Below, piece after piece: positions 29,948 through 31,556 of a DNA stretch of 41,521 bases. This DNA comes from Bacteroidales bacterium (GTDB taxonomy: Bacteria; Bacteroidota; Bacteroidia; Bacteroidales; WCHB1-69). Location of the stretch: the NCBI GenBank assembly GCA_017650305.1, contig JAGCFD010000065.1, forward strand, positions 1-41,521. Direction: 5' to 3'. The notes beneath the pieces are model-generated. The model ran no database searches and had not been told where the DNA came from. It saw nothing but the letters and a program-made list of their open reading frames with translations. A program made the position numbers and the translations under genes. Position 1 is the stretch's first letter, and each line of letters opens with the position of its first letter.

Positions 29948-29969
29948 TTATAAGTCTATTTGCTTATAA
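29948..29969 (+). promoter_or_regulatory. Operator-like inverted repeat, unit 1
   Basis: TTATAAG, 8 nt (TCTATTTG), CTTATAA. This is the first of three 22-bp units with identical arms and an exact 29-bp period, upstream of the SatD-like gene. Confidence 0.85.
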
Positions 29970-29976
29970 ATGTGTC

Positions 29977-29998
29977 TTATAAGCTTTTTTGCTTATAA
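29977..29998 (+). promoter_or_regulatory. Operator-like inverted repeat, unit 2
   Basis: TTATAAG, 8 nt (CTTTTTTG), CTTATAA. It begins exactly 29 bp after unit 1. The preceding C makes its left arm the 8-bp palindrome CTTATAAG. Confidence 0.85.
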
Positions 29999-30005
29999 AT
30001 TATTT

Positions 30006-30027
30006 TTATAAGTGTTTTTACTTATAA
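30006..30027 (+). promoter_or_regulatory. Operator-like inverted repeat, unit 3
   Basis: TTATAAG, 8 nt (TGTTTTTA), CTTATAA. It begins 29 bp after unit 2 and ends 6 bp before the -7 box, so it covers the place where the -33 element should lie. A protein bound here would compete with or contact RNA polymerase. Confidence 0.88.
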
Positions 30028-30033
30028 AAAATG

Positions 30034-30041
30034 TATCTTTG
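30034..30041 (+). promoter_or_regulatory. -7 box for the satD-like operon
   Basis: TATCTTTG followed by CACCC is a very good TAnnTTTG match, 17 nt before the ATG at 30059. It implies a leader of only about 10-12 nt. Confidence 0.75.
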
Positions 30042-30058
30042 CACCCAAAATTTTCATT

Positions 30059-30766
30059 ATGGTACAAGCAGCAATCTCGGCAGATATCGTCTCCTCTTCG
30101 TCATTGTCCATAGAGGAGAAGAGCGCCCTTAACCAAAGTATCCGCCATTTCTTGAGTGAACTTGAGAATGACGATACAACCAAACAGTGGGGTAGAATAG
30201 TCAAAGGTGACGCCGTGGAGATCTTCATGTCAGATCCCCATAAGGCTCTGCGTACGGCCTTGAGACTGAAAACTTTGGTGAAACAGATGCCCTTGAACGA
30301 TCTGGTGGATGAAACTCCTGAACTGAAGAATAAACGAATCCTTTTTAAAAAATATGGCATTCGTATGGCTGTCGGTTTGGGAGAAATTACAGTCGCGGAC
30401 AAAGAACGTGACATGCTGGATGGCGAGGCCATATACTACGCCGGACGCTTGATGGAATACCAAGGGACCTCCCAGAAAGAACGGGCGGTGGTTAAGAATA
30501 CACTTTTCTTCAAAGCCCATAACGACTCCTTGACACAACAGATGAATGTGTTGTTGGGTCTCATAGATGTGTTGCTTCGAAAGGCTAATGCGCGTCAGTG
30601 CGAGGTTCTGTATCAAAAACTCTCTGGAAAAACCGAGATGGAGATAGCAGAAATATTGAACATTAAGCAATCGGCTGTAAACCAGCATAGCACTGCTGCC
30701 GGCTGGAACGCATTAGAACAGGCTGTGCTCTATTATGAAACGTTAAATTTTGAAAATTATGGTTAA
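30059..30766 (+). CDS. SatD-like regulator: cyclase-like fold plus helix-turn-helix
   Basis: The 235-residue protein fits the SatD family, which has no settled biochemical role. The N-terminal 150 residues follow the order of a class III nucleotide-cyclase domain: AAISADIVSSSSLS with Asp9, VKGDAVEIF with Asp51, IRMAVGLGEI near 101-110, and DGEAIYYAGRLME with Arg130. The asparagine usually found four residues before that arginine is Tyr126, so catalysis is doubtful and ligand sensing is equally possible. Residues 188-212 (LSGKTEMEIAEILNIKQSAVNQH) form a sigma region 4-like helix-turn-helix. The gene has its own promoter behind three operator-like repeats and overlaps the DUF3307 gene. Family assignment is fairly secure; the cyclase likeness is my inference from motif order. 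Confidence 0.78.
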   Translation: MVQAAISADIVSSSSLSIEEKSALNQSIRHFLSELENDDTTKQWGRIVKGDAVEIFMSDPHKALRTALRLKTLVKQMPLNDLVDETPELKNKRILFKKYGIRMAVGLGEITVADKERDMLDGEAIYYAGRLMEYQGTSQKERAVVKNTLFFKAHNDSLTQQMNVLLGLIDVLLRKANARQCEVLYQKLSGKTEMEIAEILNIKQSAVNQHSTAAGWNALEQAVLYYETLNFENYG

Positions 30767-31556
30767 ACTTCTTACGTTGCAGATTCTGGCCCATATTATC
30801 AGTGATTTTTATCTGCAAACAGGTAAATCCTGCCAAAATAAGGCCCAAAGAGGATTCCAATCGCCGCATCTGTATGTGCATGTGGCCATCACCTTCATCT
30901 GCTCTTGGATCTTGTCGCTTTTGTATCCCTATACTTTCGATTTTTGGTGGGCCTCCATGGTCATAGCCGTCTTGCATGGCGTTATTGACGGCTTGAAATC
31001 CCGTTTCCAAAAGGTTCCTTGGGTATTTTTTATAGACCAAGTGTTGCACCTGACGGTCATCTGTGCGGTGGTTGCTTGGTTTAGCAGTACGGTGAACTAT
31101 AAAATCCCCTTCTTGAACGACAGTGTGGTCACTCCTCTCGATATGATTCCGACTTCCACATTGCTGTGGATCACGGCGTTTGCGTTTTGTCTGCGTCCGG
31201 CCAACCTTTTCATCGGTGAAATCCTGAACAATGCCCAAATCAAATGCCCCAAAGATCAGGAGCCTGAGTCTGAGCAACCTCTACAAGAGGGAATGGAGGC
31301 TGGTTCGCCAGAAACCACTTCGGAATTGCCGAATGCAGGACATCTGATCGGCAATGTGGAAAGAGTGCTGACCTTGATTTTTATGATGTTTGGCCATTTC
31401 GAAGCCATTGGCTTCCTGTTAGCTGCCAAATCACTCCTGCGTTTCAAGGATAGTGCCACGAATAAGTCTGAATATGTATTGGTAGGCACCCTGCTGAGCT
31501 TTGGTTTGGCTATCATTGCAGGTGCCATAGTGTTGAGTCTGTTAAATAGAGTGTAA
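30759..31556 (+). CDS. DUF3307 membrane protein
   Basis: The 265-residue product has about six hydrophobic segments and the conserved polar motifs of DUF3307: LAHIISDFYLQT at the start, VLHGVIDGLKSRF, and VFFIDQVLHLTVI. The His/Asp residues placed in or near membrane segments suggest metal or proton handling, but no function is established. A hydrophilic loop rich in Glu (about residues 165-195) separates the two halves. I prefer the ATG at 30759 over a TTG nine bases earlier; either way it overlaps the SatD-like gene by at least 8 nt, so production of the two is coupled. Confidence 0.8.
   Translation: MVKLLTLQILAHIISDFYLQTGKSCQNKAQRGFQSPHLYVHVAITFICSWILSLLYPYTFDFWWASMVIAVLHGVIDGLKSRFQKVPWVFFIDQVLHLTVICAVVAWFSSTVNYKIPFLNDSVVTPLDMIPTSTLLWITAFAFCLRPANLFIGEILNNAQIKCPKDQEPESEQPLQEGMEAGSPETTSELPNAGHLIGNVERVLTLIFMMFGHFEAIGFLLAAKSLLRFKDSATNKSEYVLVGTLLSFGLAIIAGAIVLSLLNRV

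Follow-up and report, generated by a model that had tools for sequence, protein, structure and literature searches.

The DNA analyzed here, referred to as the window, is a 41,521-nucleotide stretch from a member of the Bacteroidales (lineage WCHB1-69; GenBank assembly GCA_017650305.1, contig JAGCFD010000065.1, positions 1 to 41,521 of the forward strand). It carries three operator-like inverted repeats directly before a two-gene operon that encodes a SatD-like protein and a DUF3307 membrane protein. Comparison of this locus with its relatives revealed that arrays of fixed period whose letters drift from one locus to another are a hallmark of the satD-DUF3307 gene pair. We think it likely that SatD binds the array as its own operator, represses satD-DUF3307 cooperatively and senses a nucleotide through its N-terminal domain.

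The operator array and the satD-DUF3307 operon

The features of the locus are as follows.

29948..29969, no strand: operator unit 1, TTATAAG-TCTATTTG-CTTATAA, exact
29977..29998, no strand: operator unit 2, TTATAAG-CTTTTTTG-CTTATAA, exact, 29 bp from unit 1
30006..30027, no strand: operator unit 3, TTATAAG-TGTTTTTA-CTTATAA, exact, overlapping the expected -33 region
30034..30041, + strand: -7 promoter box TATCTTTG, of the Bacteroidota type TAnnTTTG
30059..30766, + strand: satD-like gene (235 amino acids), predicted to encode a cyclase-fold domain at the N terminus (approximately residues 1-155), a linking helix and a C-terminal helix-turn-helix (HTH)
30759..31556, + strand: gene for a DUF3307 membrane protein (PF11750, E 4.4e-23), overlapping the end of satD

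The three units had been described in an earlier, sequence-only reading of this DNA, and all were recovered at these positions, with arms identical at 42 of 42 bases, a period of exactly 29 bp and differing spacers. That reading also placed the end of unit 3 at 6 bp upstream of the -7 box, which proved correct; the box begins 17 bp from the center of unit 3, and the satD start codon is at 30059. We take TAnnTTTG to be the Bacteroidota -7 consensus, and the -33 region presumably lies under unit 3. With up to 2 mismatches allowed, the only TTATAAG-N8-CTTATAA sites in the window are these 3 (mean of 0.05 in 100 shuffles), and the exact pattern occurs in the whole genome (2.09 Mb, 84.65% complete) only as the 3 window units, with 0 occurrences of a reversed control. 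Scattering of the repeat through the genome, which would have counted against the earlier reading, is not seen: the genome contains 5 further sites at up to 2 mismatches, below the 17 found for a control pattern. A regulon within this genome was rejected on the same counts, no second site standing out. Three close relatives, whose SatD proteins are 89 to 93% identical, have 3 exact units each with differing spacers; that the spacers differ while the units stay exact supports the earlier suggestion of selection on the arms, as opposed to recent duplication.

Judged by its sequence, the SatD of the window is a divergent homologue of family PF16264 and not a formal member of it (E 3e-4, 20.9 bits, under the 29-bit cut-off; aligned residues 94-213). 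Residues 178-212 match the GerE/LuxR HTH profile (PF00196; E 4.6e-5, 23.4 bits, just under the cut-off of 23.5). In an AlphaFold2 model (mean predicted local distance difference test score [pLDDT], 91.8), the predicted HTH helices span residues 178-188, 193-200 and 204-213, the last (approximately 204-213) being the predicted recognition helix. The DUF3307 protein passes the PF11750 cut-off of 23 with 82.1 bits, and its alignment has invariant His/Asp residues within predicted helices. Its structure model (pLDDT, 86.5) has a best PDB match at E 0.32; comparison by hhalign with the YdjM membrane hydrolases (PF04307) gave a probability of 0.1% with only 3 YdjM sequences, and an unrelated exchanger used as a control gave the same.

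No tested function for SatD was found in the open-licence literature, where the name is swamped by unrelated acronyms. DUF3307 appears there in one paper, as the best match of one jumbo phage gene. A statement in one further source assigns a Fusobacterium SatD to acid resistance, by annotation (PMC10326533).

Conservation of the array geometry

Counting the window genome, 16 of the 104 family genomes and 49 of the 393 order genomes encode a SatD homologue. A scan of named genomes gave 227 relatives among 282 pattern matches, and the best 80 of the 227, which were examined, span rumen Bacteroidales, Aequorivita, Flavobacterium, Echinicola, Roseivirga and Dokdonia. In 79 of these 80 loci the gene immediately after satD encodes DUF3307; in the remaining one the contig ends.

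Averaged across 62 non-redundant upstream regions, dyad scores rise to a sharp peak at a spacer of 8 and a period of 29; this period was strictly best in 32 regions, and every other period in at most 2. A test blind to dyads was applied to the upstream regions of SatD homologues (105, non-redundant) and found significant tandem similarity in 87, the best lag being 29 in 65, 28 in 20, 22 in one and 42 in one, so that arrays do precede most of the SatD homologues examined, as the sequence-only reading had expected. A geometry score, fixed once the geometry was known and applied alike to real and control bins, reached at least 7 in 61 of the 62 satD upstream regions, compared with 16 of 1981 control bins drawn from these loci; 60 of the 62 loci scored highest at the satD region. 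Seven loci had an outside peak of at least 8, which was the satD array itself in 5. A separate tandem dyad array (TATCAAATAATA...) lies 4.1 kb downstream of the satD start at one locus (L076) and scores 9.1 for the same geometry.

The half-site letters drift between loci (TTATAAG, TTATCGG, TTATTAC, TTATCTG and others) while the geometry stays; the conserved feature is the 28/29-bp geometry, and the TTATAAG arms are one lineage's version of it. Among significant regions, the lag was 29 in 46 of 48 cases where SatD has at least 225 amino acids; where it has at most 212 (n = 24), the lag was 28 in 16 and 29 in 8. The dimer-to-dimer distance therefore tends to follow the protein subfamily.

The pair was also approached from its second gene. 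DUF3307 profile matches were present in 77 of 296 sampled Bacteroidota genomes, and a SatD-like gene adjoined in all of the best-scoring 30 loci (30/30). DUF3307-derived loci carry other half-sites (e.g., GTAATA, CAGATAA and TATCGT), and the pooled autocorrelation of their upstream regions has peaks at 28 (0.445) and 56 (0.394); in a dyad test on 26 such regions, 28 was strictly best in 8, 29 in 4 and other periods in 5, with 9 ties. Eight PF16264 loci, fetched of 40 places listed, all match a family-specific profile built from the present SatD set (E 9e-12 to 2.9e-19). Seven of the eight have a DUF3307-like neighbor (4 of these weakly), and the best lag is 28 or 29 in 7, significantly so in 4 (L179, L181, L182 and L183) by a threshold of 11.8, the 95% point of a null taken from the 105-region set. 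The region upstream of L179 is a near-perfect TGAACC...GGTTCA run (lag 28, score 70.4) before a short SatD frame of 143 amino acids.

A mobile-element reading of the pair was considered and rejected. Searched by tblastn, the window SatD gave no plasmid or phage match at 1e-5, and a scan of viral contigs gave 25 pattern matches and no relative. DUF3307 matched 19 plasmid records and no phage record by tblastn, although one family of phage proteins, phrog_2470, does match the protein of the window (E 4.5e-12). Five plasmid records were fetched; the upstream SatD-like gene is clear in 4 (E 1.1e-31 or better) and weak in that from Fusobacterium (5e-8). Two Vibrionaceae plasmids carry lag-28 repeats (scores of 28.8 and 14.5), and lag scoring found no 28/29-bp repeats on the Segatella and Sphingomonas plasmids. 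Seven other plasmid matches (H11 and H13-H18; 3.8-4.4 kb, Klebsiella/Escherichia) have a DUF3307-like stretch over 39% of the query.

Co-variation of operator letters with the recognition helix

Half-sites for each locus were taken from units assigned under periods 28 and 29 only and thus give no independent evidence for the period, which comes from the dyad-score survey (62 regions) and the dyad-blind lag test (105 regions). Residue-operator association was computed over 98 of the 105 loci (score of at least 7.5); the residue-base tables and the promoter survey cover 99 loci, including the window. Operator distance correlates with recognition-helix distance after N-terminal distance is removed (0.31, permutation p 0.001), and the converse partial correlation, for N-terminal distance with the recognition helix removed, is -0.06. 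When the 235 SatD positions were ranked by operator association, Q204 came first (0.47) and Q209 second (0.41), both in the recognition helix. The third-ranked position, K71 (0.40), lies in the N-terminal domain and is unexplained by binding of SatD to the array. In disjoint sister pairs (n = 49), rho was 0.61 for the recognition helix and 0.54 for the N-terminal domain, with partial values of 0.36 and 0.12.

The pairing of residues with bases is simple. Counted with no correction for ancestry, Q204 goes with an ATA core in 92 of 94 loci. Offset 5 is C in 60 of 61 loci with Q209 and in 15 of 33 with another residue there; offset 7 is G in 10 of 11 loci with an acidic residue 209 and in 15 of 87 of the others. 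All 4 loci without Q204 depart from ATA: R goes with ACA twice (in two related loci), V with GTA and P with GAT. A single operator core was found for 62 of 70 distinct recognition helices, a count of little weight since most helices occur once. Such co-variation of operator letters with the recognition helix is strong computational evidence that SatD, already put forward as the binder by the sequence-only reading, does bind its array, and we hold this to be very probable.

Placement of the array at the promoter

Within 110 nt of the start, 73 of the 99 loci have a TAnnTTTG box, where single-base shuffles predict 10.0, and the distance from the center of the last unit to this box clusters at few values. 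At +6/+8 (17 loci) the right arm of the operator overlaps the -7 box; at +15 to +18 (21 loci, including the window) the unit covers the -33 region; and in 16 loci the distance is beyond +30. In seven loci, offsets of -10 to -13 look like the result of a spurious further unit called across the -7 box, and at L038 the called units lie downstream of it. Frequent coverage of the -33 region or the -7 box by the last unit favors autorepression, this being the placement of a repressor, and SatD probably represses its own promoter in the manner proposed.

Alternatively, SatD may bind the array and activate, with units upstream of or over a poor -33 region recruiting RNA polymerase. LuxR-type HTH proteins are often activators, and in many loci the -33 region falls within the operator, whose units stop shortly before the -7 box. 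In six gut Bacteroidales loci (L113, L116, L122 and L125-L127) a distance of 38-39 bp separates the center of the last unit from the -7 box downstream, a spacing that exceeds that of the window by 21-22 bp and could suit an activator. The group of loci beyond +30 leaves room for activation. However, overlap of the right arm with the -7 box in 17 loci and the downstream array of L038 speak against it, and we regard activation as unlikely.

Arrays without satD and genomic neighborhood

Exact units occur in 15 of the 104 family genomes. The expectation that the motif would track satD was borne out in 10 of these; in the other 5, SatD was not detected. Four of the five satD-less arrays sit where relatives have satD. 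In G014 (L160, 1501-1522) and G028 (L165, 1501-1551; two exact units left, 29 bp apart), the array lies between galE and a Na+/H+ exchanger gene and satD-DUF3307 is absent; in the window, the operon has a galE-like epimerase gene on one side and a Na+/H+ exchanger gene on the other. In G080 (L170) and G088 (L171), the array lies between the end of hsdS (type I restriction, by reading) and another gene, a setting that satD itself has in several relatives, where it follows an apparent hsdS end. These solo arrays look like remnants left after loss of satD-DUF3307 and show that the array can exist apart from the gene. In G088 the solo array is followed by an AbiEii-like nucleotidyltransferase gene (named from reading its sequence).

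Neighbors were surveyed as 110 upstream and 112 downstream genes (at most 2 per side per locus; clusters of at least 2; named by reading sequences). Those that recur are tilS-like (12 loci) and pabB-like (11 loci) genes in flavobacteria and, in rumen Bacteroidales, genes for V-type ATPase A-like (9 loci) and other subunits (6-7 loci). At L051-L059, of rumen-type Bacteroidales, satD-DUF3307 lies within an apparent V-type ATPase operon. On a Sphingomonas insulae plasmid (L189), genes for SatD-like and DUF3307 proteins lie directly beside annotated Pycsar genes (cyclase, E2-associated cysteine-rich protein and effector), and no array was found there. A defense-island reading, prompted by the hsdS ends and this plasmid, was rejected: the recurring neighbors read as housekeeping genes, and PADLOC gave no supporting match for the window pair.

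Solo arrays in 5 of the 15 genomes with exact units would fit an array bound by an unrelated regulator, with SatD simply its target. Yet the operator letters follow the SatD recognition helix beyond overall SatD divergence, and the 28/29-bp geometry accompanies SatD into distant homologues and the two Vibrionaceae plasmids, which makes this alternative highly improbable. The patchy occurrence of satD-DUF3307 (in the family and order genomes counted above), its position after apparent hsdS ends and the solo arrays between an hsdS end and another gene would also fit a DNA-level element, with repeats at which gene cassettes insert or recombine, for example. Against such an element, the same two genes follow the array in 79 of 80 loci, offsets to the -7 box cluster at few values and the letters covary with the HTH; we find it scarcely credible.

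The N-terminal domain

The N-terminal domain of SatD has a predicted fold like that of class III nucleotidyl cyclases, according to its model and to fold matches (8-20% identity among the matches listed). D9 and D51, which from their motif position we take to be the class III metal aspartates, are invariant in 106 of 106 SatD sequences. At what is presumably the position of the catalytic Asn of the Asn-x3-Arg motif, Asn occurs in 0 of 106 and Tyr in 70 of 106, the rest having V, I, Q, H, T or R; Arg130 is kept in 81 and replaced in 25. A cyclase fold that keeps the metal aspartates and lacks the catalytic Asn suggests a nucleotide sensor. In a PADLOC profile scan of 5 proteins, neither SatD nor DUF3307 of the window matched PycC or an effector; the window SatD has a weak CARF3 match (E 0.0015) over the HTH, and L042 alone matches PycC (E 0.004).

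One could instead picture SatD as an active cyclase and DUF3307 as a cyclic-nucleotide-gated effector in a Pycsar-like defense system, with the array serving autoregulation. The fold with its metal aspartates, the PycC match of L042, the Sphingomonas plasmid pair beside Pycsar genes and the nearly always adjacent membrane partner all speak for this possibility. The catalytic Asn absent from all 106 sequences, the frequent replacement of Arg130, the failure of DUF3307 to match any PADLOC profile and the housekeeping character of the recurring neighbors speak against it, and we consider it quite improbable.

Proposed mechanism and significance

The mechanism that we infer for autorepression has SatD as its binder and DUF3307 as its effector. 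A SatD dimer would bind each inverted repeat through its C-terminal HTH. Given the fixed 28/29-bp spacing, neighboring dimers probably touch and bind cooperatively along the array, and its occupancy would cover the satD-DUF3307 promoter and repress it. Most likely the N-terminal domain senses a metal-bound nucleotide and thereby releases (or tightens) the array, so that the response to this signal would adjust the amount of DUF3307 membrane protein made. A period of about 2.7 helical turns means that neighboring dimers are not on one face of the DNA, and a protein chain winding round the DNA would fit it. A more speculative possibility, to which we give tentative credence and which may well prove wrong, is that SatD represents a new family of one-component regulators whose nucleotide-gated sensor is a nucleotidyl cyclase that has given up catalysis, and whose dimers polymerize at a fixed 28/29-bp pitch on arrays that co-diversify with the recognition helix. 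The output, DUF3307, would be a membrane metalloenzyme-like protein, and the whole a switch for stress or phage attack, transferred from genome to genome.

These results offer a testable function for SatD and a regulatory setting for DUF3307, two families without an assigned role. They also bring together some 100 natural pairs of a SatD protein and its matching operator (99 tabulated), with a readable residue-base code, in which co-change of regulator and operator can be followed under fixed geometry. If the cyclase-like domain does bind nucleotides, it would represent a type of nucleotide sensor new to transcriptional control.

Comparison with known systems

One close likeness is to the SatD family (PF16264) with DUF3307 (PF11750), with which the window shares the family profile, DUF3307-like neighbors and 28/29-bp repeats (in 4 of 8 loci), although the window protein scores below the Pfam cut-off. 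Class III adenylyl and guanylyl cyclases and GGDEF domains differ from SatD, which lacks the catalytic Asn, does not always keep the Arg and is fused to an HTH. Autoregulators with tandem operators are found among phage repressors, plasmid partition systems and toxin-antitoxin regulators, and SatD resembles these in having several dyads over its own promoter; however, its array keeps a 28/29-bp period across divergent members while the letters drift, and its regulator family is unrelated. The mycobacterial regulators that join a cyclase homology domain to a LuxR-type HTH are larger proteins with an AAA domain. SatD, in contrast, has about 200-250 amino acids and no catalytic Asn, and it is accompanied by DUF3307 and by operator arrays. 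What the two share is the combination itself, a cyclase homology domain with a LuxR-type HTH, as described for the mycobacterial proteins (PMC3466318).
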